Origin: Anaerolineales bacterium
GTDB lineage: Bacteria > Chloroflexota > Anaerolineae > Anaerolineales > UBA4823
Length of the DNA: 64,000 nucleotides
Reading direction: 5' to 3'
Assembly: GCA_016935755.1 (NCBI GenBank)
Contig: JAFGQI010000076.1
Location: 46,584-110,583 of the forward strand
The notes under the pieces were generated by a model that saw nothing but the letters and a program-made list of their open reading frames with translations, did no database searches and was not told the DNA's origin. This document shows, one piece after another, positions 1-26,389 of the stretch (position 1 is its first letter; every line of letters starts with the position of its first letter). The translations under genes and the position numbers were made by a program.

Positions 1-632
1 CTGGGGTTTTGTTGGCTGCGAACCTGGCGGATGGTTAGCATCATGGTGCGTAAAGCATGGGCGGAAAAGTATTCTGGCTGGGAGGGGATGATCAGCATAT
101 CGGCAGCTGCCAGGGCGTTAATCGTGACTGCTCCCATCAATGGCGGGCAGTCGAGGATGATGAAATCATAGGGCAGTGTCGGCTGCTCAGCTTGAGACCC
201 TTCGGAAATATTGCTCTGCCGGGGGAGGCGTAAACCAGCGCGTAGAATCGTCTCATAGTTTTTGCGCACAGGCAGGAAACGCTCAGCCAGATCCATCCCA
301 GAGTTTGAGGGGATCAGATCCAACCCTGGTATATCGGTTTGGCGGCTGACACTCAGCGGGGTGGCAGAATTAAAGAATACATCGGTGACGGCTCCTCGCA
401 GGCGGCTGGGATCCACGCCCAAAGCCAGGGTCAGGTTGGCCTGGGCATCCAGGTCGATCAGCAGAACCTCCTGATTGTGGTTGGTCAGGGCGCCGCCCAG
501 AGATACAACGGTGGTGGTCTTGGCAACACCACCTTTCTGGTTGGCAACGGCGATAATGAATGGCATTGACCGTGTAGAAGGCATCGAGGCATGTGCGGAT
601 CCAGGTAATGAGGTGTCGGCAGGCAGGTTCAT
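1..632 (-). CDS. ParA/Soj-family ATPase, 3' end truncated by the window edge
   Basis: Manual reverse-strand translation from ATG at 632: MNLPADTSLPGSAHASMPSTRSMPFIIAVANQKGGVAKTTTVVSLGGALTNHNQEVLLIDLDAQANLTLALG...YDFIILDCPPLMGAVTINALAAADMLIIPSQPEYFSAHALR. Deviant Walker A (KGGVAKTT), LIDLDAQAN and ILDCPP motifs. ATGA overlap with the upstream ORF stop at 629-631. Absent from the ORF track because it has no stop in the window. Confidence 0.93.
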   Translation of the reverse strand, partial: MNLPADTSLPGSAHASMPSTRSMPFIIAVANQKGGVAKTTTVVSLGGALTNHNQEVLLIDLDAQANLTLALGVDPSRLRGAVTDVFFNSATPLSVSRQTDIPGLDLIPSNSGMDLAERFLPVRKNYETILRAGLRLPRQSNISEGSQAEQPTLPYDFIILDCPPLMGAVTINALAAADMLIIPSQPEYFSAHALRTMMLTIRQVRSQQNP

Positions 633-2467: not shown

Positions 2468-2491
2468 TTCTGGTAATCCTATTTACATGAG

Positions 2492-3628
2492 CTACGTTCC
2501 CAGGATGAATGTAAATGTAATCAAAAAGAACAAGACTACACCAAGCCAACCTGCCAGAGCAGCAACCAATGGGCGGCTGCCGGTGTTGATCACGCTGTCG
2601 ATGTCCACAGTCAGACCGATGCTGGTCAGGGTCGTGGCAAAAATTAACGGGGCGTAAGTTTTTAATGGTTGGAGTATCGTCCGGGAAGATGGAACAAACG
2701 AAATTAAAACTCCAACAATGATGAAGGGCAGCAGGAACCATACCCGCCCCAGTGAGCGAATAAATTGTGAAAAGACAGCTCCACTTGCAGGAACTTGCCT
2801 GGCAGCGCCAATAGTTCCTCGGTGCAGAAAGCTGGCAAACACGGCAATGGGGGCCAGCATGACGATGCGGATGGTTTTAACCGCCAGGGCAAAATCGGTG
2901 ATGCTCTGGTTTAGCCCGGCGATTGCCAGGCGCACAGTGCCGGTCTGGTGCAGGGTGCTGCCGCTCAGCACTGCGTATGCCTCATCGCTCAGCTGCAGGA
3001 ATTCTTTTAACAGGGGATAAGTCATCACGCCCAACAAAGCGACCGCGGTCACCGCCAACAAAGACACAGAGGTATCCTCTGGCTCTGCGTCGATGCTGGG
3101 GGTGAGCACAGCAATCGCCGAGGCGCCGCAGACTGCTGACCCGTAGGCGAGCAAAGCGCTGAGCTTAGGGCGTAATTTCCAAAGTACACGGTTGAGCGAA
3201 TAGATGATCACGAAGAACAAAACCATGCACAGCAGGGTGAAAATGATGATTTGAAGGGGCAAGGTAGCGAAACGGCTGAAATCGATATTGGTGCCATACG
3301 CAATGATGCCAACTGGGATCAGCAGCTTCACGCTGAATTGTATGCCAGGCTGTAAGGTGGGATTGTTCCCCAGGATGGCTTTGATCGTCATGCCCATCAG
3401 AATGCCTAATACCAGCGCGTCCAGGGAGTGATGCAGTGTGGACAGGTAAAAAGCCACGCCACCAATAGCAGCTGCCAGCAAGAAGCCTGGAATAACATTC
3501 GCAAACTGCTGCAGATAGCGGGAGGACCCTGACTGGGGAGTCTGGTTGGCTGCCCCAAGAAATGGGCGCTCTTCCGATGATTGATCCATACTTGCCGGTT
3601 GAGTCTCTGACGATCTTGAAACGCTCAT
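2492..3628 (-). CDS. YeiH/UPF0324-family membrane protein (putative sulfate exporter family)
   Basis: 378 aa, multi-TM; GVAFYLSTLHHSLDALVLGILMGMTIKAILGN and YGSAVCGASAIAVLTPSIDAEPEDTSVSLLAVTAVALLGVMTYPLL match YeiH family character. Confidence 0.85.
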   Translation of the reverse strand: MSVSRSSETQPASMDQSSEERPFLGAANQTPQSGSSRYLQQFANVIPGFLLAAAIGGVAFYLSTLHHSLDALVLGILMGMTIKAILGNNPTLQPGIQFSVKLLIPVGIIAYGTNIDFSRFATLPLQIIIFTLLCMVLFFVIIYSLNRVLWKLRPKLSALLAYGSAVCGASAIAVLTPSIDAEPEDTSVSLLAVTAVALLGVMTYPLLKEFLQLSDEAYAVLSGSTLHQTGTVRLAIAGLNQSITDFALAVKTIRIVMLAPIAVFASFLHRGTIGAARQVPASGAVFSQFIRSLGRVWFLLPFIIVGVLISFVPSSRTILQPLKTYAPLIFATTLTSIGLTVDIDSVINTGSRPLVAALAGWLGVVLFFLITFTFILGT

Positions 3629-5967
3629 AAGGTGCTCCCTTCGATCTCCGCTTGACCGGGTCGTAGATCTATTGGCTGACGATTCGCATGGATTTGTCCA
3701 GTCTCTGGCTGTTCAACACCAGCTTCGGGCAGGTCATGCACAACCCCTGTTTGTGGGATGCCCATGCGGACCTCAACTTCTTTAAGATCAAGAACCTGGC
3801 GAATTTCACGCACCGCGGTTTGTAGGATGGTATCGATATCGAGGGTGGCGCGCATGCGCCCGGTGATCTCACCGACCAGGCGCTCGCGCTCTGCCGACAT
3901 CTGAGTCTCTTCAAACAGGCGGGCGCTATCCAGGGTGACACCGAGCTGGTCAACCAGAGTTTCGAGTAAATTTAGTTCATCGGGGCGCAATGCAGCAGCT
4001 GGCTGATTTTCGCCTGAGGCTGTTCGTGGGCGAGCTTTTATCGTGCCAATCACCCGGCCGCGTGATTTGATCGGTAGAACCAAAGCTTCCGTTTCTCCTT
4101 TGGGATTAGCTCCCGAGGCGCTCGCGCTGCCCTCAAATTCCCGAATGTGCTTCAACCCTTGCGGATCACGCTGCAGGAGCAGGGGACGCCGGCGCAGGCG
4201 TTCCATCCAGGCCTGGTGGCTGAACTCGCCATAGGCCTGGCGCATGGCTTCCATGGTTTCTTGAGCCTGGGAGAACAGGCGGGCGTTATCCAGCGCGACT
4301 GCCACCTGATCTGCCATGGTTTGGAAGATGGCAATTGTTTCACGATCAAAGGCGCCCGACCGGGTGCTCTGAATGCTAATGGCGCCTAACACCTGGCCGC
4401 GCGAGCGCAAGGGGACCGCGGCCTCGGAGCGCGTGTCTGGTAGATCGGCAGTCGCCAGGCGGATGGGGTCTTCTCCAGCCTCCAGAGCGATACGAGGTTG
4501 GGCGTTGGCAATGCACCAGCCAATCATAGAAGAAGATCCAGGAGCGGCCTCAATTTTCAAGCGGTGGCCGCGAGCTAACATGGTTTCTCCGGCTTGCCCG
4601 GTGCCGGCGCGCAGCACCGCCCATTCGCGGTACTCATCTACCAGAAACAAGCCGACATAATACAGATCAAAACGCTGCTGGATCAGATCGACCACACGTT
4701 GGATCAGCTGGGAGGTATCCAGCACTGTAGCCACCGAACGGCTGACTTCTGCCGCGCCCAGCAGCTGTTCGTTACGGGTTTCAAACTGGCGGGTGCGCTG
4801 TGCGACACGTTCCTCCAGGCTGACGATTAACTCCCGTAAGCGGATGGTCATGGCGTTGAAGGCTTGCGAAAGCATGCCAATTTCATCGCCGCGGCGCAAG
4901 TTTAGCCGGCTGGAGGTCTGCTGCAGAGCCAGGTTGCCGCTGGCGACCTGGCTGGCTGTGGTGGTGAGTTCGGACAGGGGGCGGATGAGACTGGCGCCAA
5001 CAAAGAAGGCTGCCAGAACAGCCACCAGAGTGGAGGCGATGATAATGCTGGCCAGCAAACGGGTGGTGGTGATCAGCGTTCGCTGCGCTTCTACCTGCTC
5101 CTGTTCAGCTACGAGAGCTATCTCAAGATCGGGGAGCCAACGATAGGCGCTGTACACCGGGATGCCCTGGTAGTTCGAATAGAGGGCTGTGTCGGCTTGC
5201 TGGTAACGGATCGCATTCAGCACGCCCTCAGTGCGGATGGCAGATGAGCCGGTGATATTGGGATTATTTGGGTCATCTGAAACGCGCAGGTCGGTCAGAA
5301 GAACGTTATCAGCGTTGACCAGATAGGTTTCACCGGTTTCGCCCAGGGAAGCTTTTTCGGTCATCAGGGTGTTAAGTGTGCCCAGGGTAGCGCGGCCTGC
5401 CAACACCCCCAGTACTTCGCCCTGGTCAGAGAGAATAGGTTGAGAAAAGATGACCGAATATTGCATCAAGGAAACATCGAATACGGGGGGCTGCACGAAT
5501 TGACTGCGCAGGCCTCTTTCAAAGAAGCGCTGGGTGGCGAAGAGACGGCCTTCTTTGGCGGCATCTGTTGATAAGATGACTACACCCTCCGTATTCAAGA
5601 TAAAGAGTTCAACAAAGTCGGGGCGGGCGATCAGCGCTTCCTGGAAGTTTGCCAGTTGGGAGTCGTATACCACCCGAAAAACAGCGCTATCAAGATCAGA
5701 TTGCAGCAGGTTGGTCAGAAAGCGTGTGCCCTCGCTGCGTTGGATTTCGGCTTGCAGCGTCGTTTGGAGATCGGCAGCCCACCTCAACACCTCATTTTCT
5801 TTGAGGATGGCAACTGCGGTCAGGTTATTGTAAATATTCGTCTCAGCATCGGTGGATAGCACAGGCGTAACCACCAGGGCTAATACGCCAATGGGCAGCA
5901 GAGCGAAGAGCACCAGCAGGATGATCAGCCTCGTCCGAATACTGTTATACCAGTTGATCTGCCTCAT
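3625..5967 (-). CDS. dCache-like/HAMP/GAF/GAF sensor protein (array member 8), no catalytic output domain
   Basis: 780 aa; TM, ~280 aa extracytoplasmic region (VDLIF-type sensor text FVELFILNTEGVVILSTDAAKEGRLF), TM, HAMP, VAQRTRQFETRNEQLL coiled coil, GAF, YGEFSHQAW linker, second GAF. ATGA overlaps at both ends. Confidence 0.87.
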   Translation of the reverse strand: MRQINWYNSIRTRLIILLVLFALLPIGVLALVVTPVLSTDAETNIYNNLTAVAILKENEVLRWAADLQTTLQAEIQRSEGTRFLTNLLQSDLDSAVFRVVYDSQLANFQEALIARPDFVELFILNTEGVVILSTDAAKEGRLFATQRFFERGLRSQFVQPPVFDVSLMQYSVIFSQPILSDQGEVLGVLAGRATLGTLNTLMTEKASLGETGETYLVNADNVLLTDLRVSDDPNNPNITGSSAIRTEGVLNAIRYQQADTALYSNYQGIPVYSAYRWLPDLEIALVAEQEQVEAQRTLITTTRLLASIIIASTLVAVLAAFFVGASLIRPLSELTTTASQVASGNLALQQTSSRLNLRRGDEIGMLSQAFNAMTIRLRELIVSLEERVAQRTRQFETRNEQLLGAAEVSRSVATVLDTSQLIQRVVDLIQQRFDLYYVGLFLVDEYREWAVLRAGTGQAGETMLARGHRLKIEAAPGSSSMIGWCIANAQPRIALEAGEDPIRLATADLPDTRSEAAVPLRSRGQVLGAISIQSTRSGAFDRETIAIFQTMADQVAVALDNARLFSQAQETMEAMRQAYGEFSHQAWMERLRRRPLLLQRDPQGLKHIREFEGSASASGANPKGETEALVLPIKSRGRVIGTIKARPRTASGENQPAAALRPDELNLLETLVDQLGVTLDSARLFEETQMSAERERLVGEITGRMRATLDIDTILQTAVREIRQVLDLKEVEVRMGIPQTGVVHDLPEAGVEQPETGQIHANRQPIDLRPGQAEIEGSTL

Positions 5968-8405
5968 TGTATTTCTCCATCGCGTTGATCTGTACTGCTG
6001 CGGTGATCTTGTTCCTCCGGTGAGAGCTGGATGACCAGCTCTTCCAGATCGAGCACTTTATAGATCTCCTCAACGGCGGTTTGCAGAACTGCTTCGACAT
6101 CCATCGAAGTACGCATGCGGCTGGTAACCTCGCCGATCAGTCGTTCTTGTTCGGCTCTTTGCTGGGTCTCAGCGTACAGCCGGGCGCTGTCCAAAGCTAC
6201 ACCGAGTTGCTCAGTGATGTTCTCCAGGAAGGCGATTTCTTCAGCACCCCAATTGGTAGGAACTGCGGTGTCTGCCTGGCCTTCCTGACTGTTCGCCCCG
6301 CGGGTGATATGGATGACGCCAATGGTGCTCCCACGGATGTTAATTGGGACAGCGATTGACTCTGGTCGCTGGTCGGATGCCGCCTGTTCTAGCATTGTTG
6401 ATGGAACCGGGCGACCCTGCTGGAAGGCCATTTCCATCTCTGGATACCAGACAGGCGTAGCCGGGTGAACGCCGCTGGCATCGCCTCGTAAAGTAAGGCC
6501 TGCCTGGCCCTGGCTGGTTTCCTGAGCCCAATCCTGCCAGCTGTAGCGTGATCGAGCTGAATAAGCCTGGCGTTCAGCCTGGAGGGCCTGCTGACTCTCT
6601 GCGTAAAGTCGGGCATTTGAGATCGCCACAGCAAGCTGGTCTGCCAGGGATTGCAGCACTGCCAGCGAAACCTCATCAAAGGCATTGGGCTGGGCGCTCT
6701 GCACTGAAATCGCGCCTAGAACCTGACCGCGCGAGCGCAGCGGCAGAGCCGCTTCCGAACGCGTTTCGGGCAGTTCGGCGGTTGAGGCGCGCATCAGGTC
6801 GCTTTCTGCAAACTGGGCAATGCGGGCCTGACTGTTGGAAATGCACCAGCCGATCATCGAGCCTCGACCGATCAGCAGGCGGTGACCGCGGGTGATCATG
6901 GCCTGACCGGCCTGACCTGTGCCAGCGTGTAATACTGCCCATTCCTGGTTCTCATCCACCAGGAAAAGTCCAACATAATACAGGTTGAAGCGTTCACGGA
7001 TCAGCTCAACCGCCTCACGAATGAGCATTTCAGGGTCAAGAATCGAGGCTGCTACCTGGCTCACCTGGGCGGAGGCTTCCAGGTAGTTCGAGCGTTCAGA
7101 TAACTGCCGGGTGCGCTCTGCGACACGCTGCTCCAGGCTGTCGATCAGTGTGTTCAACTGTTTCGTCATGCTGGAAAAGGCCTGTTCCAGCACACCGATT
7201 TCGTCTCCCGAGGGATTGATCTCGACAACTGGCTCGGGAGGCGGGGCCTCCACTGGCTGTGTGATGATCGCTGGGACGGCTTCTTTTCGCGGCGCACCCA
7301 GCGTGAGTCTTTCGATGGCTGAGCGGCTCAACTGTTGGGCCGTCTCGGCCAGGTTGCTGACGGGGGAGGCGATGGTGTAGGTAACCATCAGGGCGATAAA
7401 CACTGCCACCAGGATGGATGCCAGCGCTACGCTGGAGTTGACTGCCAGGGTTGCCAGTGTAGTGCGGTTGGCCTCGGCCTGTTCTTGTTCAGCCAGGACA
7501 AGCACCTGCAGGTCGGTAATCCAGCGGTACACACCGGTGACCGGCACGCCATCCTGATTGGTGTAATTCAGAATCCCGCCTGCGCTGTCTGCTGCAAACT
7601 GGATGCCCTGGGTATTGACTTTTTGCCCCAGGTCTTCTTCGACTGGACCAACCAGCAAGGTGCGATCAGCTCCCACCAAATAAGTCACCCCGGTTTCGCC
7701 CAGCCCCAGAGAATTGTTCAGGATTTCAGATAATGGCGCCATCTTTACCCTGGCTGCCATCACGCCGATTACTTGGCCAGACTCCGTGTCACCCGATTGT
7801 TCTCCATCCGTATTCGCCTGACCAAAGATGGGCATACTGACATATAACTGTGTTTTGCCCAGGGCGTAGTTGTAGTCGGGGGTGCTGGTATATGGGGCTG
7901 CCAAACCCTGTGAGAAGAATGCGCTCTGGCTTAAATCCTGGCCTTCCTGGGTGTTATTGCTGGATAGGATTACCACTCCCCCGCGGTCGAGCAGGAAAAT
8001 CTCATCAAAATTTTGCGATTGCCTCAGGTTGTTAATGAAACGGTTGCGGACGATGTTGTAAGACTCCCGGATCAGGAGATAGTCCGGCGAAGTTGGAGGA
8101 GTCTGGATAATTTTAGCCACCAGGGTAGGGGTGTCTTCCCCCACCAGCGCACCAGCCAACTCGACTTTTAACCCATCCGCCCAGCTTGCGATCGCATTTT
8201 CTTTATAGCCGACCACAGTATCAAGCTGGGTGATGGCGGAATCACGCCCGCCTTGCGCCCCCGAGATGACCAGCACCAGGGAGATACCGGCGAAGGGCAG
8301 CATCGCTACCGCCAGGAATGCCAGAATCAAGCGGTATCTCAGCGAGGAGCGTGAAAGTTTGGTTTGTTCAGGTTGAACCAGTTCCGCAGATAGTTGTGAG
8401 TTCAT
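5964..8405 (-). CDS. dCache-like/HAMP/GAF/GAF sensor protein (array member 7), no catalytic output domain
   Basis: ORF open from 8528, but that start overlaps the upstream gene. MNSQLSAELVQPEQTKLSRSSLRYRLILAFLAVAMLPF begins at ATG 8405 and is the likely start. Same architecture as neighbours. Confidence 0.85.
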   Translation of the reverse strand: MNSQLSAELVQPEQTKLSRSSLRYRLILAFLAVAMLPFAGISLVLVISGAQGGRDSAITQLDTVVGYKENAIASWADGLKVELAGALVGEDTPTLVAKIIQTPPTSPDYLLIRESYNIVRNRFINNLRQSQNFDEIFLLDRGGVVILSSNNTQEGQDLSQSAFFSQGLAAPYTSTPDYNYALGKTQLYVSMPIFGQANTDGEQSGDTESGQVIGVMAARVKMAPLSEILNNSLGLGETGVTYLVGADRTLLVGPVEEDLGQKVNTQGIQFAADSAGGILNYTNQDGVPVTGVYRWITDLQVLVLAEQEQAEANRTTLATLAVNSSVALASILVAVFIALMVTYTIASPVSNLAETAQQLSRSAIERLTLGAPRKEAVPAIITQPVEAPPPEPVVEINPSGDEIGVLEQAFSSMTKQLNTLIDSLEQRVAERTRQLSERSNYLEASAQVSQVAASILDPEMLIREAVELIRERFNLYYVGLFLVDENQEWAVLHAGTGQAGQAMITRGHRLLIGRGSMIGWCISNSQARIAQFAESDLMRASTAELPETRSEAALPLRSRGQVLGAISVQSAQPNAFDEVSLAVLQSLADQLAVAISNARLYAESQQALQAERQAYSARSRYSWQDWAQETSQGQAGLTLRGDASGVHPATPVWYPEMEMAFQQGRPVPSTMLEQAASDQRPESIAVPINIRGSTIGVIHITRGANSQEGQADTAVPTNWGAEEIAFLENITEQLGVALDSARLYAETQQRAEQERLIGEVTSRMRTSMDVEAVLQTAVEEIYKVLDLEELVIQLSPEEQDHRSSTDQRDGEIQ

Positions 8406-8434
8406 TTTTCCATCATCGCAGGTACATAAATTGA

Positions 8435-9964
8435 TTACCGGAACAACGCGCTGCCCTGGGTGAGCAAGAAGTTGACAAAGAAGAAGCCAAAGAACAATAC
8501 GTTTCCAACCAGGGACAGGTATGACCACCAGGTGATTCGGGCTGGCTTGGGGAGCTGCCGGTTTAGATAAATCATCACCAGTGGGAAGATCAGGGCGGCA
8601 AAGTTTGAAAGGTTCCCAGAAATCACGGTTAGCTGGACGGGCAGAGCCAGATGAATGATGATGCTGATCACCACGATCAGCCCGATCATGATGGGATAGT
8701 ACAGCCTGCGCGGGTCTTGAACGATGCTCTCTTCGCTTGAATTTTCTGCGGCCGTCTCAGGCTGCTTTGAGCGCGCCCGCCTCCTGAATCCCAGAAGGCC
8801 ATCTGTCAGATTGCGGGCGAGCAGTTCCAGCACAACCATTTGAGTGGTATAGAGAATGAGAAAACCAGTCAAAAGCGTCCAGCCAGAGAGCAGCGGGCCG
8901 AACCTTTGACCCAGCTGCAGGGCGGCATATGTGGTGACACTGGCTTGCTCGGGCGGCTGCGCCCCTGGCAGACCGGCCAGGTAGCCGACCAGGATGCTGG
9001 GCAGCATCATGCCCAGGATAGCGCCCACAAAATAGATGCCCCACTGGTCAATCAGCAGATAACGGAACCAGCGCTTCCAGATGGCGGCGTTTTTCTCGTT
9101 CTCTGGGAAAATCTTGCCTACGCTGCTCAGCTTGCTGGCGCGCCCTCCGAGTAGACCTGGGAGATAGCCTGTGCGGCTTCCCATACCAAAGCCCTTGTCG
9201 CGATAATAGCCAATAAACATGAAATTCAAACCGGAGGCCAGCGCCGTGAAGCCTGCCAGAGCGCCCAACAAGGACATATCGGCCCCTTCAGGTAAACGAG
9301 AGGGGGTCACCAGCGAGAGCATGGCGCTGCCCCAATAACTGATTGGTACTACCACCAGGGTGACCAGGAGCAGGCCAATTAACACGTAGGGTAAAATCAA
9401 TCCCTGTACCGCTTCCATGGTGCGCTCGATCTTGCGACCGAACATGGTCACAACAAAGATTGAAGCCAGAAGCCCGATACCCATGATACGCACCAGTTCC
9501 AACTCATTGGCCTGGTAGACCCTGCCTGTAAAGAGAGCGAACAGGCTGGCGCCAGCGCTCACCGTCCACCCACCCAGGATGAAGGCCATGTAGAAGCTGA
9601 ACAGCGCCAGTGGGATCCACAACCAATAGCCTGGCGGCGTACGACCAAAAGCCAGGATGGGGGGCTCGCCGGTAGCAATGGTAAAGCGCGCCAGTTCGAT
9701 ATTATAGAGCACCTGGAGAACTGCTGATACCAGGATTACCCAGCCGATCCCCTGGAACCCCAGCTTACTCACATTCAACGGGCCCAACTGCCATTCACCG
9801 CTGCCGATAGAGATGCCCAGGGCGATCACTCCTGGCCCCAGGATAAAGAGGATTAACTCCTGCAGGCCGACCCGCTTTACTTTATATACTTCTTCTGGTG
9901 TGGGCAGGTCTTGCACTTCGAGCGGGGGCCGGCTTACGCCGATCTGTTTGTATTCTTTCTCCAT
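8435..9964 (-). CDS. Nramp-like APC-superfamily permease with non-canonical TM1 motif
   Basis: 509 aa, ~11 TM; GPGVIALGISIGSGEWQLGPLNVSKLG where canonical Nramp has DPGN. Start overlaps the stop of the upstream ORF by one base (TGATG). Confidence 0.72.
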   Translation of the reverse strand: MEKEYKQIGVSRPPLEVQDLPTPEEVYKVKRVGLQELILFILGPGVIALGISIGSGEWQLGPLNVSKLGFQGIGWVILVSAVLQVLYNIELARFTIATGEPPILAFGRTPPGYWLWIPLALFSFYMAFILGGWTVSAGASLFALFTGRVYQANELELVRIMGIGLLASIFVVTMFGRKIERTMEAVQGLILPYVLIGLLLVTLVVVPISYWGSAMLSLVTPSRLPEGADMSLLGALAGFTALASGLNFMFIGYYRDKGFGMGSRTGYLPGLLGGRASKLSSVGKIFPENEKNAAIWKRWFRYLLIDQWGIYFVGAILGMMLPSILVGYLAGLPGAQPPEQASVTTYAALQLGQRFGPLLSGWTLLTGFLILYTTQMVVLELLARNLTDGLLGFRRRARSKQPETAAENSSEESIVQDPRRLYYPIMIGLIVVISIIIHLALPVQLTVISGNLSNFAALIFPLVMIYLNRQLPKPARITWWSYLSLVGNVLFFGFFFVNFLLTQGSALFR

Positions 9965-11934
9965 CAGTTGGTCTCCTGCCGCTGGGCTTCGAGAGAATCT
10001 GTATTGCCGCCATCGCCTTCTGGCTTGCCCAGGCTGATCATCACTTCTGAAGCAGATAGGGCTTTCTGCACCTCCAGGATCGTGGTGCGTAAAACGGTTT
10101 CGATATCCAGGGTTTCACGGATACGACTGGTAGCGTCGGCGGTGAGCTGCTCGCGCTGCGCCATGCTTTGGGCAGATTGGTACAGACGAGCGCTTTCAAT
10201 TGCCTGAGCCACCTGGATCAGCACGGCCTGCAAGGTTTGGATCTCTCCCTCGCTCCAGCTGGGGTTTTCGCTGCCTGGGTTATCTGCCTCGGCAGAGCCA
10301 GGTCTGGACAGCCTCAGCACGCCAATTGCCATGTCGCGCACGAGTACTGGCAGAATTAATTGCTCGCCATCCTGCACCACCTGACCAGTTTGCATCGCCT
10401 GCCGCATGGCCGGGCTCCAATCACCTTCTACCAGCTTTGCCTGTCCCCCACGTTCTTCTTCCCAGCGGTACCCCAGGTTTGAGCGGGTGCGCAAGAGCTG
10501 CCTCCAGCCTTCCTGACCGACCTGTCCTACGATGCGGCGCTCGGCTTCTATCGCTTGTCGGCTTTCTGTGAACAGTCGAGCGTTATCCAGGGCGACTGCC
10601 ACCTGATCTGCCATCACTGCCAGCACGCGCAGGGTTTGTTCATCAAAGGCTCCCGCAGAAACGCTCTGCAGGGTTAAGGCTCCCAAAACCTGGCCGCGCG
10701 AACGCAGTGGTAGGGCGGCTTCCGCACGCGTCTCAGGCAGCTCGGGCGTAGCCAGGCGCAACCGGTCTTCCTCCGCAATTTGAGCGATGCGGGGTTGGGC
10801 ATTGGCAATGCTCCAACCGATCATCGAACCGCCTCCAACTCTCAGCCGGTGGCCGCGCTGCAGCATGGCTTCTCCTGCGGTTCCGGTGCCTGCTTGCAGG
10901 ATCGCCCATTCCCTTTTCTCATCCAACAGGAACAGACCCACGTAATACAGGTCCAAACGTTGGCGGATTTGCTCTACTGCCACGGTGATCAATTCTGACT
11001 GATCGAGGATCGTAGAGAGCATGCCGGAGAGTTGAGCGGTGGCTTCCAGGTAAGCTGTACGCTGCTCCAACTCCTGGGTGCGTTGGGCTACCCGATTTTC
11101 CAGGTCGCCTACGGTTTCCGCAAGCTGCGAGGTCATGGCGTTGAAATCGCCAGCCAGTTCTTCGAATTCAGCCGGTCTCAATCCTCCGACCCCTGTATCT
11201 CCAACAGCTACGCGATAATTCAGGTCGCCTTCGCGCACCCGCTTTGCTCCTTCAGTCAGCTGGTTGAGCGGCCTGGACAGGCCGTTGCCAAACAACCAGC
11301 CGAGTCCAGCCATCGCAGGGGTGATCAGGAGAAAAATTAGCAATGAAACCCATAAGAACTGTCGTTCATAACTGATCACAGTATCGACTGACATATCAAT
11401 GCCCAGCACAGCATCGCGTCTGCCGCCTGAGGTGTATAAGGGTGCATAGGCGGTAAGCCAGGTACCCCAGCGATCGGTGTAGAAATCCTCTTCCACGGAA
11501 GGCTCACCGAGCAGAGAAATTTTTTGCATCGTTTCAACATCCAGCTCGTAATAGACATCTCCCAGGTGGGAGACTTCTTCGGGGTCCGTCTCTGCGTCAA
11601 CGATGAAAACAACCTGCCCATCGGGGGCTGGTTCGCGCTGATAGCGCAATGAATACACATACACCAGTTCGGGATCAATATCGCGGATGGCTTGCAGCTG
11701 GCGTTGAATTTTCAGGTAATCCGCGTTGCCTTCCTGGGCAGGGTCTGTCAGGGTGGAATGCAGATCAACATCCACCTGCATGACTGCCAGGCTGACGATG
11801 TCAAGCAGGCGCTGGCGAGTGGCCTCGCGCGTCCGCTGGCGAGCAAATAGATAGAGGCTGGTGATAATCAGGGCAGCCATCAGAATTGCCAGCAGGGCTA
11901 TGTTGGTCGCCAGGATGGAGCGTAATTTTCTCAT
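9964..11934 (-). CDS. Cache-like/HAMP/GAF/GAF sensor protein (array member 6), no catalytic output domain
   Basis: 656 aa; TM, ~140 aa periplasmic region, TM, HAMP (NGLSRPLNQLTEGAKRVREGDLNYRV), AQRTQELEQRTAYLEATAQLSGML, GAF, Trp linker, second GAF, C-terminal helix. Confidence 0.86.
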   Translation of the reverse strand: MRKLRSILATNIALLAILMAALIITSLYLFARQRTREATRQRLLDIVSLAVMQVDVDLHSTLTDPAQEGNADYLKIQRQLQAIRDIDPELVYVYSLRYQREPAPDGQVVFIVDAETDPEEVSHLGDVYYELDVETMQKISLLGEPSVEEDFYTDRWGTWLTAYAPLYTSGGRRDAVLGIDMSVDTVISYERQFLWVSLLIFLLITPAMAGLGWLFGNGLSRPLNQLTEGAKRVREGDLNYRVAVGDTGVGGLRPAEFEELAGDFNAMTSQLAETVGDLENRVAQRTQELEQRTAYLEATAQLSGMLSTILDQSELITVAVEQIRQRLDLYYVGLFLLDEKREWAILQAGTGTAGEAMLQRGHRLRVGGGSMIGWSIANAQPRIAQIAEEDRLRLATPELPETRAEAALPLRSRGQVLGALTLQSVSAGAFDEQTLRVLAVMADQVAVALDNARLFTESRQAIEAERRIVGQVGQEGWRQLLRTRSNLGYRWEEERGGQAKLVEGDWSPAMRQAMQTGQVVQDGEQLILPVLVRDMAIGVLRLSRPGSAEADNPGSENPSWSEGEIQTLQAVLIQVAQAIESARLYQSAQSMAQREQLTADATSRIRETLDIETVLRTTILEVQKALSASEVMISLGKPEGDGGNTDSLEAQRQETN

Positions 11935-11938
11935 CTTA

Positions 11939-14524: not shown

Positions 14525-14526
14525 AA

Positions 14527-16419
14527 TTACGACCTATCACCTGCATCTTTACCGGTTGTGAGGACAATAGAGGCTTCAATTACGGAAGGAATCTGTCCCA
14601 GTTCGCTGGCTGCAGCTTGCAGCACAACATCTGTATCCAACGAGCGGGTAACATTTGCTGTCAGGCGGTTGATGGTCTGCTCGCGTCCTGCACGGCTCTG
14701 GGCTTCTTCAAACAGGCGTGCGCTTTCCAGGATTTGGCCGATTCGGCTGGCAAGGTTGGTGAGCAGAAATACTTGATCGGAAGGCAGTTCACCCTGTTCA
14801 GGAGTCAGTTCCAGGTTGCCAATCACCTGTCCGCCGACTTGCAGGGGAATGGACACAGGGACGCTGGAGCTGTATCTGGCCGATTCTGCTCCTGTCTGCT
14901 CGGCAGTCTTACTCTCGATGGGCGTCAGATTAATCCCATCAAATTGATAGCCGAGTACCCCGCCTGTGGCAGCCCATGCGCTCCAGGCCTGCTGGCGATA
15001 TGTGCCATAGAAACGCTCCATTTCGCCCAGGTTTTCCTGAAGCTCATCCAACAAGCGAGCATTGTAAATTGCCGTAGCCAGTTGGTCGGCAATTACCTGT
15101 AAAATGGTCAAGTCTTCTTCATCGAAAGCCGCTTCTTGCTGGCTCTGGATATCCAGCGCGCCAATCACTTCATTCCCAATCCTCAGGGGCAGAGCAGCTT
15201 CGGAACGTGTTTCTGGTAGAAGTGGATTCCTGAAATGTACCGCGTCCTGCCCAACATCCAGAGCGATGCGTGGATGACCGGTGTGCGTGACGTAACCTAC
15301 CAGCCCTGTTTCCCCGACCCCCAATTTGTGGCCCTGGGAGAGCATTTGCGCTCCAGCTTCGCCTGTTGCAGCGCGCAGGTGAGCGTATTCACGCCGCTCA
15401 TCAACCAGGAACACTCCGGCGTGATAGAAACCGAACCGCTCACGCACCAGGTTCACAGTAAAGTTGAGCAGATCTGCTAACTCGCGCCGGGTAGTGATAT
15501 CACGCGCCACTTGAGAAGCCGCTTGCACCTGCTGCGTGCGGCGTTCCAATTCCTGGGTGCGCTCGTTGACTCGTCTCTCCAATGATCCATAGGATTCACG
15601 CAGCCAGTCCGTCATCAGGATAATTGCCCGGGTGAGTTCACCGACTTCGTCTGCCCTGTGCTCATATGCGCGCAGCTCTGCGGATTGCGAGAGCTGGACC
15701 AGGGGGGCTTGTTCGGTGGCGGCGCTTTTCGCCGCTGTGATCTGCCTGACTTCCACGCTCAACCTGGTGAGAGGTTGGATGAGATCGCGCCGAGACAGGA
15801 AAAGGATTACCATTGACAGGGCAATTGCTGCCAGGATCAGCGCTCCCCAGGCAATCAACGTGGCTGATCGGGTTCGCTCAACCTGGTCGGCAGATAGAGC
15901 AACCTCATTCTGGATGTTCTGATTCAGTTGGGCCAACTTTTCTTGCATTTGCGGTTGCAAGGGGCTGATAAATGTCTGGTGCTGGGTTGTGGCGCTGCCC
16001 CAGCGGCCTTGCTGGATGTAGCTGTTGAATTCTGTAATGGCTTGATTGAACTGGGCGTAAATTCCATCTATCTCGTTGACCAGGGGTTGATTATTGAATC
16101 TGCCGACTTCGCTAACCCCTGGCGGTTGGGCAACCAGATCTTGCAGCTGCTCCGTGAAGCTCTGTACAGAAGTGTCTAGCTGGTTTTGGTAGGTAGTATA
16201 GGAGCGGGTGATCAGCAGGTTGTTAATGTTATCGACAATGGACGACCAGCCGTTTTGCAGCTCGCGCACACGCTCCTGCTCGCTGCCAGCCTGGCGAAAA
16301 GCTGTCAGGCTGCGACCGGCAGCCTGGCTGAGGATAAACCCACCGGCGCTGGCGGCAATCACCATCAGCACGATGAAGACGAACGATAGAGTCAGCCGGG
16401 TAAATAGGGAAGTTCTCAT
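14527..16419 (-). CDS. Four-helix-bundle-type sensor/HAMP/GAF/GAF protein (array member 4), no catalytic output domain
   Basis: 630 aa; TM-flanked all-helical periplasmic segment (FRQAGSEQERVRELQNGWSSIVDNINNLLITRSYTTYQNQLDTSVQSF), HAMP, VNERTQELERRTQQVQAASQVARDI, GAF, YGTYRQQAWSAW linker, short second GAF. Confidence 0.86.
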   Translation of the reverse strand: MRTSLFTRLTLSFVFIVLMVIAASAGGFILSQAAGRSLTAFRQAGSEQERVRELQNGWSSIVDNINNLLITRSYTTYQNQLDTSVQSFTEQLQDLVAQPPGVSEVGRFNNQPLVNEIDGIYAQFNQAITEFNSYIQQGRWGSATTQHQTFISPLQPQMQEKLAQLNQNIQNEVALSADQVERTRSATLIAWGALILAAIALSMVILFLSRRDLIQPLTRLSVEVRQITAAKSAATEQAPLVQLSQSAELRAYEHRADEVGELTRAIILMTDWLRESYGSLERRVNERTQELERRTQQVQAASQVARDITTRRELADLLNFTVNLVRERFGFYHAGVFLVDERREYAHLRAATGEAGAQMLSQGHKLGVGETGLVGYVTHTGHPRIALDVGQDAVHFRNPLLPETRSEAALPLRIGNEVIGALDIQSQQEAAFDEEDLTILQVIADQLATAIYNARLLDELQENLGEMERFYGTYRQQAWSAWAATGGVLGYQFDGINLTPIESKTAEQTGAESARYSSSVPVSIPLQVGGQVIGNLELTPEQGELPSDQVFLLTNLASRIGQILESARLFEEAQSRAGREQTINRLTANVTRSLDTDVVLQAAASELGQIPSVIEASIVLTTGKDAGDRS

Positions 16420-18770
16420 TGACCATCTCCATCGCCAGGTGGCGTTTCTTGCTCCGTTGGGGCGCTCTGTGCAATCGTCAAACGCACCCTGGCGCCGCTG
16501 ACAGCCAGGCCGATGTCTCGAACGGCATTCTTCATCACGGTCTCCAGGTTCATCGAGCTTTGCGCCCGGCTAATGACCTGATTAATAAACTCTTCCTGTG
16601 AGGCGCGCTGCTGCACTTCTTCCAGCAGGCGAGCATTGTCCAGGGCTAGTGCCACCTGGTTGAGTGTTTCCTCGATCAGCCTGCGCTCTTGCGGCGTCCA
16701 GGGAGCGGCTCGCTGGAGGGAGATTGCGCCAAGCTTTTCCCCGCGCAGCATGATAGGCCATTCTTCGGACAATGCTCTATCCTTTTTCGTCGCCTCTGGT
16801 AGATGCTGTCCGGATCGCTCGTCCTGCCCTGCCCGGTGTTCACCGCCGGGAGAGACCCTGCCTGCATGCAGAGAGTATGCCATTCCACCACCTTCTGCAG
16901 AGAGCAGACGTGTTTGCCATCGCTGGGCGGTCTGCTTACTCAGCAATACCTGAAGTTCTTGAGTAGTCTGGCGGCTTTCATCGATCAGGAGCGAATTCTG
17001 GATGGCAAGGGCGATCTGGTCAGCCAGAATCTGCAGGATTTCAACATCCTCCTGGGTGAAGGCGGATTGTTCGGTGGATTGAACATCCAGAACACCAATG
17101 ACCTGTTCTTGCACTTTGAGGGGCAGGCCCATTTCTGAGCGGGTCAATGGCAGGTCGGGGTTGTTGAAGAAGACTGCATCCTGGCCCACATCCAGAGCAA
17201 TGCGGGGACTGCCTGATCCTGCGACGTAGCCGACGATGCCGATGGGGCGCACCTGGCGATCAGTGCTGCTCCGCATCGTTCCCCCACCCAGGCGCATAGA
17301 TTCTGGCGAAGCCACAGCCAGGCGGTGCCCGCGGGCTAACATGCGCTGTCCGCCTTCCGATGAGGCTGCTTTGAGGACTGCAAAACCTGGGCTGCCCGAT
17401 TGACCAGACCCGCTATCCAGAAGGAAGATGCCAGCATGATAAAAACCGAAGCGTTCAGAGATCAATTTCACCATGTCCTGCATCAGGCGGTCGCCAGAAC
17501 TACGCTCCTGGCCGCTGATGGCAGAAGTTGTCCCAAAGGAGGCCGCCTCGCGTGCTACTTCAGCCGTCACCTGCAGCTGCACCAGACGGCGTTCCAACGC
17601 TGATGTACGTTCAGCGACGCGCTCTTCCAGTGCTGTGATGAACTGGCGCAGTTGAGCAGTCATACGGTTGAAGGTGTTTGCCAGCAAACCGATCTCATCC
17701 TGGCTTTGGACCGGGGCGGCGCGGGAAAGGTCGCCAGCAGAAATGGCCGCAGCAGTCTCGGTGAGGCTGCGGATAGGCTGGATGCTCCGGCGGAGGCTGA
17801 GATAAGTGAGGATGAATAAGAGAACTGCACTTACCCCCAACGCTGTCCAGGCGATCTGTTGGTAGGTGCGTATGGGCGCCAGCAACTCATTCTCAGGCTG
17901 CTGGACAATGACTCCCCAGTCAGCACTCAGGCGGGACAGATGAGCGCGCCAGACCAATCCACTCTGATCGGTGAACTGATAAGCTCCTTCTATTCCGCTC
18001 CGCAGCGCCTTCACCGGGTTATATGTGCTGAAGTCCTGAATGGCAGCTGGGGCATTTGGGTCAACAGCCAATTCTGGCGCGTTTTGCACATCGGCTGGGC
18101 TGGCGACTACTCTGTCTTCGGAGTCAAAGATGTAAGCAAAACCTTGCTGCCCAGCCCGGGCGGTTTGCACCTGCTGGCTGATTGCGGTTAATTCGCTGGC
18201 AAACATGGCTACACCGATCACCTGGCCCTGATCGTCTCGGATAGGAACTGAAAGCACCAGGGCGGGGCGGCCACTGGTGCGGCCGATCAGGAGTTGGTAG
18301 GACCATGGGGAGTCACCCGACGCAGCATTGCGATACCATAACCGGTCACTGTAATCGGTTAGTTTGCCATCATCATTGCGGGCAATGTTCATGCCCTGCA
18401 GATCGGTTGTGCTGACCAGATACATCTGTGGATAGGCGGCGGCCATGGCTTTTAGTGCGGGTGTCTGCTGTTCTGGATCCATGCTGCGGATAGCAGGCAG
18501 CGCAGCCAGGGTCTGCAAAACGCTGACATGGGTGTCCAACCACAGCGATATCGTGGAACCAACGGCATTATTCAGCGCCCGCAGGTTTGTTGCTGCATCT
18601 TGTTCAAGCTGGGTACGGGCTCGTTCGATCAGGAAGAAGGCCATGACAGCCAAAATGGGCAGCGCGATTAATAAGGTTAACGCGGTCAATCTCACCAGCA
18701 GCGAGTTTCTGGCGCGCAGCCCTGTACTTTGCTCCCTCATTAGTCCACCCCCGGCCTGATATGTGCTCAT
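16416..18770 (-). CDS. dCache_1-like/HAMP/GAF/GAF sensor protein (array member 3), no catalytic output domain
   Basis: 784 aa; periplasmic ~280 aa (AAAYPQMYLVSTTDLQGMNIARNDDGKLTDYSDRLWYRNAASGD is dCache-like), HAMP, GAF, linker, second GAF. ATGA overlaps at both ends. Confidence 0.87.
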   Translation of the reverse strand: MSTYQAGGGLMREQSTGLRARNSLLVRLTALTLLIALPILAVMAFFLIERARTQLEQDAATNLRALNNAVGSTISLWLDTHVSVLQTLAALPAIRSMDPEQQTPALKAMAAAYPQMYLVSTTDLQGMNIARNDDGKLTDYSDRLWYRNAASGDSPWSYQLLIGRTSGRPALVLSVPIRDDQGQVIGVAMFASELTAISQQVQTARAGQQGFAYIFDSEDRVVASPADVQNAPELAVDPNAPAAIQDFSTYNPVKALRSGIEGAYQFTDQSGLVWRAHLSRLSADWGVIVQQPENELLAPIRTYQQIAWTALGVSAVLLFILTYLSLRRSIQPIRSLTETAAAISAGDLSRAAPVQSQDEIGLLANTFNRMTAQLRQFITALEERVAERTSALERRLVQLQVTAEVAREAASFGTTSAISGQERSSGDRLMQDMVKLISERFGFYHAGIFLLDSGSGQSGSPGFAVLKAASSEGGQRMLARGHRLAVASPESMRLGGGTMRSSTDRQVRPIGIVGYVAGSGSPRIALDVGQDAVFFNNPDLPLTRSEMGLPLKVQEQVIGVLDVQSTEQSAFTQEDVEILQILADQIALAIQNSLLIDESRQTTQELQVLLSKQTAQRWQTRLLSAEGGGMAYSLHAGRVSPGGEHRAGQDERSGQHLPEATKKDRALSEEWPIMLRGEKLGAISLQRAAPWTPQERRLIEETLNQVALALDNARLLEEVQQRASQEEFINQVISRAQSSMNLETVMKNAVRDIGLAVSGARVRLTIAQSAPTEQETPPGDGDGQ

Positions 18771-20779
18771 GAAGAGGCCTCCCCGGACAGGTATTGTCCT
18801 TGCTCAGTTTCGCTGGTATCACCACCCAGCTCGATCCACCCATCGGTTGCTTGTAGAGCAGATCCCAATTCTTGTATCGTGACCCGCAAGACGGTATCGA
18901 TATCTGGAGATGCCCATACTCGAGAAGTTATGGTCGACACCAGACTTTCTGCTTCTGCTCTGCGTTGGGTTTCAGTAATCAGCCGGGCGTTCTCCAATGC
19001 CAGCGCCAGTTGGTCGGTGACTGCTTCTACCAATTTCTCATCCTCTGAAGATAAATCGCGGCCATCCGCTGCTTCAATCTCCAACACCAGGTTGCCAATC
19101 ACCTGGTCGCGTATGCGGATGGGAACCTGCAGGCTGTGCAGGTCTGCGCTCTCACCTGTCAGGCTCTCTTCTTCGGTAGTGGTGGCTTGCATCTGATCGG
19201 GTTCGTAGCTCACCCGGATGGGGCCCTGGGAAGCAATCGCTTCTGACCAACCTGTTTGCAGGTATTGACGGTGGAGAGCGCGAATTTCCTGCAGACTGGC
19301 TTGCTGCTCGCTAAAGAGGCGGGCTGTTTCAATCCCCAAAGCCAGACTGTCAGCTATGCCTTGCAGAACAGTGATGTCATCTTGATCAAATGCAGATGGC
19401 TGGTGGGATTGGATCGTCAATGCTCCCAGCACCACGCTGCCAGTTTTTTCGGTGCCTGCAAGAATAGGAAGCGCCAACTCTGACCGTGTATCGGGCAGCA
19501 GGGGGTTATTAAAGCGCACAAGCTGCGCCACCGCTTCAGCGCCCGAGTCGTCCGCTGGTCGTACATCGGAGGCAATTCGCGCCTGGCCAAAATCGGTTGC
19601 CCAACCAATCATTGAGTCTCCACCAACTTCGAGCTTGTGACCTTGGGCAAGCATTCTGGCGCCAGCCTCGCCAGTACCAGCTGCCAGGACAGCGTAGCGG
19701 GTCTGGATATCTGTTACGGAGCGTTCTGAACGTGCTCCCATGACGCCCATCCTGGTTTCTGGATTACGAGCCGGGGCAGGCTCATCTACCAGGAAAATAC
19801 CCACATAATACAGATCAAAGCGCTCACGCACCAATTCGCATACCCGCGGCAAAAGCTCCTGCAAACCGCCTTGCGGCGCGGCTGGATTCAGCAGGATGCC
19901 GATCGAACGGCTGACATCGGCAGCGGTGCGGATTTCGACCAGACGGCGTTGAACATCCTGGGTGCGCTCGTCTACGCGCCGTTCCAGGGATTCTCGCTCT
20001 ATTAATATTTCGCCAGCAAGCTTCTGCTGACTGTGCAGACTCGTCTCTATGTTTTGAATCAACAGCCCAGAACCCAGCGCAGAGATGACAGCCATGAAGA
20101 TGAAGCTTATACTGGCAATAATCCATGACAGTAAGCTGGTATTACCTGTTCCCTCCTTCAAAACAGGGGGAGGGATCAGGGGCGGTTTCATGCTCATCAT
20201 CAAGCCAACAGCTACCAGGGAGATAATACTTAGTAAGAGAGTGACCGTAAGCCTGCGTCCAGAAAGCAGTAGGCTGGCGATCAGGGGTACAGTGATCAGG
20301 TAAATGCGGCCATTTCCATATAACCCATCAGATGTTAGAGTTGTAACACCCAATAGAAACAGGATTAAGAGGATCACCATACTGCGTAAATTATTGGATA
20401 GCCATCGACCGCGCTCAATTACCAGTCCGATAGCGATCAGTACCATCAGCGTGTACAGCGCCAGGTTCACCCACTGGTTGTTCTCGAAGATGATCGGCAG
20501 GTTTACCAGGTAGACCACGCCGCCCATTATGGAGAATATAATGATGACCCTGTTGAGCAACCTGCGCCGGATCGAGTATAACTCATCTGATATCGAACTG
20601 GCTGTGCCTGGCTGTCCCAGTTTCAGGCCTGCAGATCTTCGGCTGGCATCATCCAAAATTACCTGGGCTCCATCTTCTTCGAATGGGTTGAAAGCATTGG
20701 GGGACCCCGGCTCAACAGTACTGCGCTCAGGCGGCGGATGTTTTTTGTCGTCAGGGGATCGGAAGTATGATAATTTCAT
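18767..20779 (-). CDS. Polytopic (multi-TM) GAF/GAF sensor protein (array member 2), no HAMP, no catalytic output domain
   Basis: 670 aa; several N-terminal TM helices (VIIIFSIMGGVVYLVNLPIIF...LALYTLMVLIAIGLVI...MVILLILFLLGVTTL...VPLIASLLLSG), coiled coil VDERTQDVQRRLVEIRTAADVSRSIG, GAF, YLQTGW linker, second GAF. Confidence 0.85.
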   Translation of the reverse strand: MKLSYFRSPDDKKHPPPERSTVEPGSPNAFNPFEEDGAQVILDDASRRSAGLKLGQPGTASSISDELYSIRRRLLNRVIIIFSIMGGVVYLVNLPIIFENNQWVNLALYTLMVLIAIGLVIERGRWLSNNLRSMVILLILFLLGVTTLTSDGLYGNGRIYLITVPLIASLLLSGRRLTVTLLLSIISLVAVGLMMSMKPPLIPPPVLKEGTGNTSLLSWIIASISFIFMAVISALGSGLLIQNIETSLHSQQKLAGEILIERESLERRVDERTQDVQRRLVEIRTAADVSRSIGILLNPAAPQGGLQELLPRVCELVRERFDLYYVGIFLVDEPAPARNPETRMGVMGARSERSVTDIQTRYAVLAAGTGEAGARMLAQGHKLEVGGDSMIGWATDFGQARIASDVRPADDSGAEAVAQLVRFNNPLLPDTRSELALPILAGTEKTGSVVLGALTIQSHQPSAFDQDDITVLQGIADSLALGIETARLFSEQQASLQEIRALHRQYLQTGWSEAIASQGPIRVSYEPDQMQATTTEEESLTGESADLHSLQVPIRIRDQVIGNLVLEIEAADGRDLSSEDEKLVEAVTDQLALALENARLITETQRRAEAESLVSTITSRVWASPDIDTVLRVTIQELGSALQATDGWIELGGDTSETEQGQYLSGEASS

Positions 20780-20789
20780 CGCACGCTCC

Positions 20790-22856
20790 TTAACCGCCGA
20801 GGGGCGTTTCCTGCCCCTGTTCCTGATCTGTGTGATGGTATCCCTGGCTGTCAGCGAGAGGCAGGTCTGTAAAGCCGTCTTCTGCGGGCTGGCCTAAAGG
20901 ATTAATTTCAATGTGGGCGCGGCGGACCTTCAAAGCTGCGCCAAGCTCCTGTGTCGTAGCTCTGAGGATGGATTCGATATCCGCAGATTGGCGGATCCTG
21001 GCGGTGATGAGGTTTACTCGTCGCTCCAGTTCTGCCTGCCGCCGAGAGTTTTCCAGCAGACGGGCGTTGCGTAAAACAATGGCTACCTGGCTGGCAACTG
21101 TGCTGAGCAGGCGTTCATCTTCTTCATCGAACCGGTGCTCCCGTTGAGTATCTTCAATGAGGATAACTCCCAAGGTTTCCCCAGCCAGGATCAGAGGCAC
21201 CCCTAATAACGATTTCGCTGGTTCGCCAACGATTTTTGCGCCCAAGGCCTGCAGTGTGTCGTGTGTGTCTTCAACAACGCGCAGTGGTTTGCCGCTGCGG
21301 ATAATCACCGATGTGATGCCTTCTCCGTAGGGGAAGGGGGGTATTTGCAGGAATTCTCCGTTTTCAACCATATAGGGAACTCGAATAGTACCTGCTCCGA
21401 GTTCCCCCGGGGTTTTTGATGTTTTGCCTATCCCTTGTTCTGGCGGCTCATATAAGGCAATTACAAATGAGCTAATTTCGCCCATCGCCATGAGAATCTG
21501 CTGGTGGATGGTTTGATACAGGTTGGTCAGGTCGCTCTCTGCGGACTGAAGCTCCAGGGATATTTTTTGGCTGATATTCCAGAGCGTTTCCAGTTCAGTC
21601 AGGCGCCGGCGAGTCAAATGGAGCGACTCCAGGTCTTCTGTAGGGATTCGTAAGCTATCTCCGGTGGGCGGAGTGATTTGCCAGGGCAGGTCGGGAATGA
21701 CGGGTGGCGTCTCCGGTAGGGCCTCAGCCACGGCAGTGTCTGCAGGTCGTTCAGGGAAGTCGAAGGCAGCGCCGCCTGCTTCTTTGCGCCCGATAGAGAA
21801 CGTATCAATGGCAAAAGCCAGGTTGGTGGCTAATATTTGCATTTCAGCCTGCACCGGCGGCGGTAATTGCAAACGGCTTCCAGCATCTGGGGTGGCGTTT
21901 TGGGCCGTTGATAAGCGGCTGCCGCTCCTGGTAGTGGGCATATAGATCACGATCACGCCCAGTACCTGATCCCTGAGCGCAATGGGAACAACCGCCTGCC
22001 AGATTTCGACCAGGTCGGTGGGCGGGTCCGGTAAGATTTCAACCTGGGTGTGGTTGGTACGGATAGCCTGTAAAGCCAGGGGCAGTGGTGAGATTGAGCC
22101 AGCTGACTGCTGTTGGGGCAGGTCGGAATTTTCGCCAGAGGCGAGATCAATGCTCTCAGGCAGACGTTTCTCGAATTCAGAAGATCCTACTTTGTATCGC
22201 AATGTCATTGTGCCGGTAGTTGGCTGTTGAGCGCCTGGTAGATTTTTTGCCCATTCTGGTGAGGACTCACTGCCTGCTGTTTCCACAACATAAACAGCCA
22301 GATAATAATAGGTGGAACTCTTAATCACCTGATTCAGTGTATGACGCAGCACTTCGTGGAGATTGGGGGAGGTGGCAGTTATCCAGGACAACTGAGCCAG
22401 GCTTTGAAGCTTATTGCGGGATTCATTGGCGCGGGTTTCCAGGCGGCGGTTGAGTTCGATCACTTCATCGGCGATAAGATCGAAGGATTGAGCCAGCGTA
22501 CCAATTTCATTCAATCCCAGACCAGCTTGTTTTTCGAAACTCATGCGCTGTTCCCAGTTTCCATCTGCAAACAGCCGGGTTGTCTTCGTCAGCGTCCCCA
22601 ATGATTTAACCAGGCTACGGAAAAATATCCCAGCCAGCACCCAGGGTATGAGCAGTGCGATAGCCAGGAAGATCAGGCCGTAATGCAGTTCGAGCAGATT
22701 ACGACCGTAGAGGTACGCCAGGGTCCCGATGAGCGCCAGTTGGATCAGCGAGAGCGGCAGGATGAAGAGCAGGAGCATGCGCGACAGTTGGCCACGAGGC
22801 AGCCGATTGGGGGCAGGAATGGCCGATGACATGAATAAGATCTCCTCATCGTTCAA
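20790..22856 (-). CDS. Two-TM/HAMP-like/GAF-GAF sensor protein (array member 1), no catalytic output domain
   Basis: 688 aa; two TM with a very short loop, HAMP-like segment, two GAF-like regions, the last (EGITSVIIRSGKPLRVVEDTHDTLQALGAKIVGEPAKSLLGVPLILAGETLGVILIEDTQREHRFDEEDERLLSTVASQVAIVLRNARL) the most canonical. Confidence 0.84.
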   Translation of the reverse strand: MNDEEILFMSSAIPAPNRLPRGQLSRMLLLFILPLSLIQLALIGTLAYLYGRNLLELHYGLIFLAIALLIPWVLAGIFFRSLVKSLGTLTKTTRLFADGNWEQRMSFEKQAGLGLNEIGTLAQSFDLIADEVIELNRRLETRANESRNKLQSLAQLSWITATSPNLHEVLRHTLNQVIKSSTYYYLAVYVVETAGSESSPEWAKNLPGAQQPTTGTMTLRYKVGSSEFEKRLPESIDLASGENSDLPQQQSAGSISPLPLALQAIRTNHTQVEILPDPPTDLVEIWQAVVPIALRDQVLGVIVIYMPTTRSGSRLSTAQNATPDAGSRLQLPPPVQAEMQILATNLAFAIDTFSIGRKEAGGAAFDFPERPADTAVAEALPETPPVIPDLPWQITPPTGDSLRIPTEDLESLHLTRRRLTELETLWNISQKISLELQSAESDLTNLYQTIHQQILMAMGEISSFVIALYEPPEQGIGKTSKTPGELGAGTIRVPYMVENGEFLQIPPFPYGEGITSVIIRSGKPLRVVEDTHDTLQALGAKIVGEPAKSLLGVPLILAGETLGVILIEDTQREHRFDEEDERLLSTVASQVAIVLRNARLLENSRRQAELERRVNLITARIRQSADIESILRATTQELGAALKVRRAHIEINPLGQPAEDGFTDLPLADSQGYHHTDQEQGQETPLGG

Positions 22857-25481: not shown

Positions 25482-25499
25482 TCGAGAGGAGATAGTCTG

Positions 25500-26378: not shown

Positions 26379-26389
26379 AGGGTTTCTGC

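Follow-up and report, generated by a model that had tools for sequence, protein, structure and literature searches.

A conserved run of output-less GAF sensors with a ParA-type ATPase and a single hybrid histidine kinase in Anaerolineae: a candidate many-receptor, one-kinase array

The window analysed here is a stretch of 64,000 nucleotides, positions 46584-110583 of contig C126, from the 4.1 Mb draft genome (G000, 87.5% complete) of an Anaerolineales bacterium. An earlier sequence-only reading had described nine large paralogous sensor genes on its minus strand, and a check of the open reading frames finds all nine at the coordinates then given. The genes of the run, including those outside the window, are as follows.

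23553..23951, minus strand: REC-only (CheY-like) protein 1; REC-like by HMMER
23028..23531, minus strand: REC-only protein 2; Pfam Response_reg, 69.6 bits
20790..22856, minus strand: first, atypical kinase-less GAF protein; 2 TM, weak HAMP, GAF; Pfam GAF, 65 bits
18767..20779, minus strand: kinase-less sensor with MASE11 input (Pfam)
16416..18770, minus strand: kinase-less sensor, dCache_1-HAMP-GAF-half-GAF (Pfam); A2 profile, 467 bits
14527..16419, minus strand: kinase-less sensor, 2 TM, GAF-half-GAF (Pfam); A2 profile, 498 bits
11939..14524, minus strand: kinase-less sensor, dCache_3-HAMP-GAF-half-GAF (Pfam)
9964..11934, minus strand: kinase-less sensor, 2 TM, HAMP-GAF-half-GAF (Pfam)
8435..9964, minus strand: Nramp-family transporter within the array; NCBIfam NF037982, 134 bits (cut-off 50)
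5964..8405, minus strand: kinase-less sensor, dCache_1-GAF-half-GAF (Pfam); open frame reaches 8528
3625..5967, minus strand: kinase-less sensor, dCache_1-HAMP-GAF-half-GAF (Pfam); cytoplasmic half modelled with AlphaFold
2492..3628, minus strand: YeiH/Cons_hypoth698 membrane transporter within the array; Pfam PF03601, 204 bits
629..2467, minus strand: kinase-less sensor, 2 TM, GAF-half-GAF (Pfam); A2 profile, 498 bits
1..632, minus strand: ParA-type ATPase, 5' part in the window (whole gene C126:46241-47215); Pfam AAA_31, 145 bits
C126:42580-46221, outside the window, minus strand: hybrid histidine kinase; Pfam HisKA, HATPase_c, REC
C126:40522-42441 (L011:522-2441), outside the window, minus strand: PALP-REC protein; Pfam PALP and REC

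Junctions within the run measure -4 to +29 nt, in keeping with the ATGA overlaps and gaps under 30 nt noted earlier. The nine genes had been said to lie head-to-tail and almost without gaps; the tight junctions bear this out, but two transporter genes (2492-3628 and 8435-9964) are interposed. Nor does the run end at 629: the ParA gene overlaps the sensor gene 629-2467 by 4 nt and the run continues past the window edge, where the hybrid kinase gene starts 19 nt after the ParA gene and is followed by the PALP-REC gene. The description "kinase-less" is consequently correct gene by gene but not for the locus, whose run includes a hybrid histidine kinase. The TTG start of 20790-22856 is doubtful, an ATG about 24 nt further in being the likely one. 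A promoter and terminator scan came out near the shuffled expectation and is uninformative.

GAF domains are present in all nine array sensors, and dCache_1, dCache_3, MASE11 and HAMP are found among their input domains (Pfam). Eight of the nine share a full cytoplasmic module made up of a coil, a GAF domain, a helix with an invariant Trp, a half-GAF and a C-terminal helix. Strongly related cytoplasmic halves had been reported for the whole set, but 20790-22856 matches only the C-terminal part of the module (96 bits with the A2 profile vs 461-518 for the other eight). The cytoplasmic halves in G000 are similar in 28 of 28 within-genome pairs, the input halves in only 2 of 28, and the same holds in other genomes, where all within-genome pairs of cytoplasmic halves are similar and few pairs of input halves. 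Across 60 sensors the Trp is invariant and some 40 further columns nearly so. Sensor reading frames are intact, and the inputs found in relatives are varied (dCache, MCP-like PDC, 4HB). Chemoreceptors follow this pattern too, with inputs that vary and a module that stays constant. Other GAF proteins of G000 match the sensor profile at 250-260 bits. This genome has 95 GAF_2 matches, which looks many for 4.1 Mb.

No kinase, GGDEF, EAL, HD, PP2C or MCP domain was detected in the nine sensors (Pfam, E<=0.001), as the sequence-only reading had maintained, and a domain search of 60 sensors from relatives likewise found no output domain. HisKA and HATPase_c are absent from the nine by Pfam, and from an AlphaFold model of one of them, the cytoplasmic half of 3625-5967 (14 sequences, mean pLDDT 72.7). 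The model places, in order, a coil, a GAF domain, a long helix, a half-GAF, a long helix, a short helix and a disordered tail; it contains no output domain and its C-terminal end is composed of helices and the tail. Foldseek matches of this half in the PDB are GAF proteins, some of them multi-domain. A hidden output domain was thus not found by Pfam, by NCBIfam or by structural modelling.

The hybrid kinase (1213 aa) combines GAF, HisKA, HATPase_c and REC domains; its H, N, G1 and G2 boxes are all intact, and its REC match falls just under the Pfam cut-off (29.9 vs 30.2 bits). It has no transmembrane segment by hydropathy and no CheW domain by Pfam, and is not of the CheA type. Downstream of a short N-terminal tag described below, its N-terminus aligns to the C-terminal module of the sensors (hhalign probability 99); its best domain scores 191 bits against the sensor profile, below the values of the other G000 GAF proteins. 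This similarity may reflect shared docking or just generic homology of tandem GAF proteins, and for the latter reason was set aside as proof of specific docking. The PALP-REC protein, a threonine-synthase-like PALP domain fused to REC, follows the kinase in relatives whose runs were read that far. It may be an output of the system. A role as sole threonine synthase was rejected, since other thrC matches exist in these genomes.

The gene order REC, REC, sensors, ParA, kinase, PALP-REC (R-R-[S]n-A-K-P) recurs in relatives of different genera with n ranging from 1 to 12; it is seen in other genomes of the source family, in f3 and in each of the ten f2 genomes that were fetched. Two single-contig genomes, G027 and G214, carry 12 and 9 sensors, respectively, and G269 and G270 one sensor each. 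Wherever the run of a relative with this order extends as far as the kinase, exactly one kinase is present. The REC-only pair heads the run in most complete relatives, and in complete cases the RECs and the kinase flank the array. The sensor module is present in 53 of 250 Anaerolineae genomes (E<=1e-85) and in one genome outside Anaerolineae, G296. Because it recurs in many genomes, the array layout is far beyond chance.

Conservation was read from fetched stretches only, in which an absence is not an absence from the genome. With this scope, no ParA of the present clade was called in the stretches of G296, G006, G004, G220 and G240, nor any ParA in the run of G251; in G234 the gene is present, though masked in the gene calls by a longer overlapping frame. 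A variant in f12 has a HAMP kinase upstream of ParA and the sensors downstream, with the tag on a soluble GAF protein. Given the five genomes without a called clade ParA and the differing f12 arrangement, the coupling of ParA and kinase is not universal.

In a tree of 92 cytoplasmic halves drawn from 16 genomes, the sequences do not cluster by genome (73 label changes vs a shuffled mean of 71.7). The input halves find reciprocal best matches across genera, and those of G000 and G280 lie in the same order (rho 1.0 over five pairs). The MASE11 sensor 18767..20779, for instance, has counterparts heading the sensor run in G280, G255, G284 and G252. Since the sensors group with their counterparts in other genomes and not with their arraymates, the sequences indicate an old, maintained ensemble and not a recent one-off expansion. 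The latter, which the sequence-only reading had named, beside an output domain in the sensors, as an outcome that would speak against it, is rejected on the strength of the tree together with the recurrence of the array beside ParA and REC genes in relatives. Concerted evolution of the cytoplasmic halves within a genome, considered as evidence of co-adaptation, is not seen in the tree. In G284 and G255 the first array gene (L126:5343-7541 and L122:8532-10718) differs from the 2-TM version of G000: its product is a double-GAF protein whose N-terminus weakly matches a zinc ribbon.

The ParA-type ATPase carries the Walker motif KGGVAKTT, and its nearest named relatives belong to Anaerolineae (phylum Chloroflexota), among them UTCFX2 and bin917. 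Members of its clade are also found directly ahead of CheW in the chemotaxis operons of other Anaerolineae. At L160 (G051) and L020 a ParA of the clade accompanies a tagged CheW protein in or beside chemotaxis operons, and at L018 a CheW protein follows a ParA relative. The tag is an [LI]xxLF motif within the first 65 residues of the next gene product: it occurs in 37 of 39 cases after ParAs scoring above 320 bits, in 2 of 60 after lower-scoring ParAs and in 114 of 1600 background ORFs, a descriptive statistic given that the motif was spotted in the same loci before counting. The two exceptions, G269 and G270, have the looser forms LENLLF and LENILL. In G000 the kinase N-terminus reads MPTVKKKKEK..RIEQLF; over the 39 loci the net charge of the tag segment ranges from -3 to +7 (median +3), some segments being neutral or acidic. 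Tagged products include kinases, GAF proteins, PAS proteins and, in chemotaxis operons, CheW proteins. ParA/MinD ATPases are known to be activated by short N-terminal peptides of basic character (PMC7993993). Chemosensory arrays are positioned by ParA-like proteins, with TlpT the suggested partner of PpfA (PMC5706961). The locus thus has a ParA/MinD-family ATPase beside signalling genes and a partner with a short basic N-terminal extension, as in ParA-positioned clusters.

In several respects the locus resembles the chemosensory arrays built of MCP, CheW and CheA: many receptors with varied inputs, a constant cytoplasmic module, REC partners and, by gene content, one kinase for many receptors. 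However, GAF modules take the place of the MCP hairpin, CheW is missing, and a HisKA-type hybrid kinase replaces CheA. The MCP signalling domain (PF00015) is missing from the window sensors, from the 60 others and from the whole G000 assembly, and CheW (PF01584) from G000 and nine others of 16 genomes. In total, neither MCP nor CheW has a match in 10 of the 16 array-clade genomes checked, G000 and the single-contig genomes G027 and G214 among them; G000 being incomplete, its own absences weigh less than those of the single-contig genomes. Service to an ordinary chemotaxis system is therefore unlikely. Several other systems invite comparison. PpfA/TlpT of Rhodobacter sphaeroides and ParC/ParP of Vibrio likewise pair a ParA with a neighbour bearing an N-terminal tag (PMC5706961, PMC7993993). 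PomZ/PomX and McdA/McdB also join a ParA/MinD ATPase to a partner with a short, mostly basic N-terminal peptide (PMC7993993), but the proposed partner here is a histidine kinase and the peptide has an [LI]xxLF core. In the RetS/LadS-GacS multikinase networks several sensors are also proposed to converge on one hybrid kinase (PMC5992135, PMC4866733); those accessory sensors are themselves histidine kinases, whereas the present ones lack a kinase and are encoded as one array. Finally, classical hybrid two-component kinases with HAMP-GAF inputs share the GAF-HisKA-HATPase_c-REC order and intact boxes, yet hydropathy shows no membrane segment in the kinase of this run, whose presumed transmembrane inputs are encoded by genes of their own. 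The layout has no published description in the open-access literature searched.

Transporter genes occur within these arrays sporadically, while ParA and kinase are nearly constant across loci. The same Nramp family found here is also present within the G284 array. In both G000 (8435-9964, then 5964-8405) and G284 (L127:428-1999) the Nramp-family gene precedes a sensor; in G280 the counterpart of 5964-8405 follows an uncharacterised 536-aa gene of similar length (L129:16236-17843). Transporter and sensor are possibly paired. Arrays of relatives also hold genes for solute-binding proteins (SBP_bac_8, NMT1, Peripla_BP_6) adjoining sensors, at L122:14320-15414, L123:3970-5010, L126:11184-12197 and L127:4296-5483.

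In this context, we put forward as the probable explanation that the genes of the run jointly specify a single signalling machine in which many inputs share one kinase, a many-receptor, one-kinase array positioned by ParA. Gene content, conservation and architecture lend support to such a machine. Through the shared module, sensors of different kinds would come together in a mixed cluster able to dock on the kinase and switch it; phosphate would go from the kinase to the REC domain that it carries, the two free RECs and the PALP-REC protein. By analogy with PpfA/TlpT, ParC/ParP and PomZ/PomX, the N-terminal [LI]xxLF tag of the kinase would bind and activate ParA, which in turn might position or partition the sensor-kinase cluster. 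Contact between sensors and kinase with its switching, clustering of the sensors and positioning by ParA are thus what we infer. The earlier suggestion that the sensors may assemble into a mixed receptor complex and signal by way of a partner in trans gains support, the candidate partner being the single, membrane-segment-free histidine kinase of the same run, which is retained by all relatives whose runs were read to that point. More tentatively, in a proposal that we regard as close to evenly balanced, this could be a second, independently built kind of receptor array, in which numerous and varied transmembrane sensors with a common GAF-based module feed one soluble histidine kinase under dedicated ParA positioning, in many hosts without chemotaxis proteins.

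Alternatively, the sensors might modify the kinase one at a time by forming heterodimers, in the manner of RetS on GacS, in which case no higher-order array would exist and ParA would merely position the kinase. Homologous GAF modules in sensors and kinase, as well as loci with n as low as 1, agree with this scenario, which we nonetheless consider unlikely: RetS is itself a histidine kinase, unlike these sensors, and a cytoplasmic module held constant on as many as 12 sensors suits a shared docking surface and single partners equally well. Less probable still is that the sensors are ligand-responsive scaffolds or regulators of adjoining transporters and binding proteins, with the kinase a conserved neighbour served by its own cytoplasmic inputs. 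The Nramp, YeiH and solute-binding genes within arrays, and the kinase's own GAF domains, agree with such a scheme; however, the sporadic transporter genes contrast with the near-constant ParA and kinase, and a common cytoplasmic module on unrelated inputs is unexpected if each sensor served a transporter of its own.

That a decayed sensor kinase was passively duplicated in tandem, its copies having no concerted function, is strongly disfavoured and, in our view, highly improbable. All sensors are indeed homologous, and loss of the kinase is a frequent form of decay. Against it stand the grouping of sensors with their counterparts across genera, the conservation of the Trp and of the nearly invariant columns, the intact reading frames and the flanking of complete arrays by RECs and kinase.

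Should the one-machine explanation be true, the logic of chemotaxis arrays, namely many receptors, one kinase and ParA-like positioning, would have arisen a second time, out of an ordinary hybrid kinase and GAF sensors, providing a natural comparison by which to tell what features a receptor array requires. It would also account for the large stock of seemingly output-less sensors in Anaerolineae, and imply a modular layout, with a constant module accepting freely differing input domains. Few genes would be needed to test it in genus g178, where the minimal version has a single sensor.

Further along the window, genes for FhaA-like and FHA proteins and for a phosphorylase lie within 24244-28837, together with an 857-aa ORF in which FtsW/RodA is joined to a short piece of transpeptidase, either a fusion or a broken gene. 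Adjacent genes at 30980-35056 and 35203-40533 code for subtilase-family proteins of very large size, 1358 and 1776 aa respectively.
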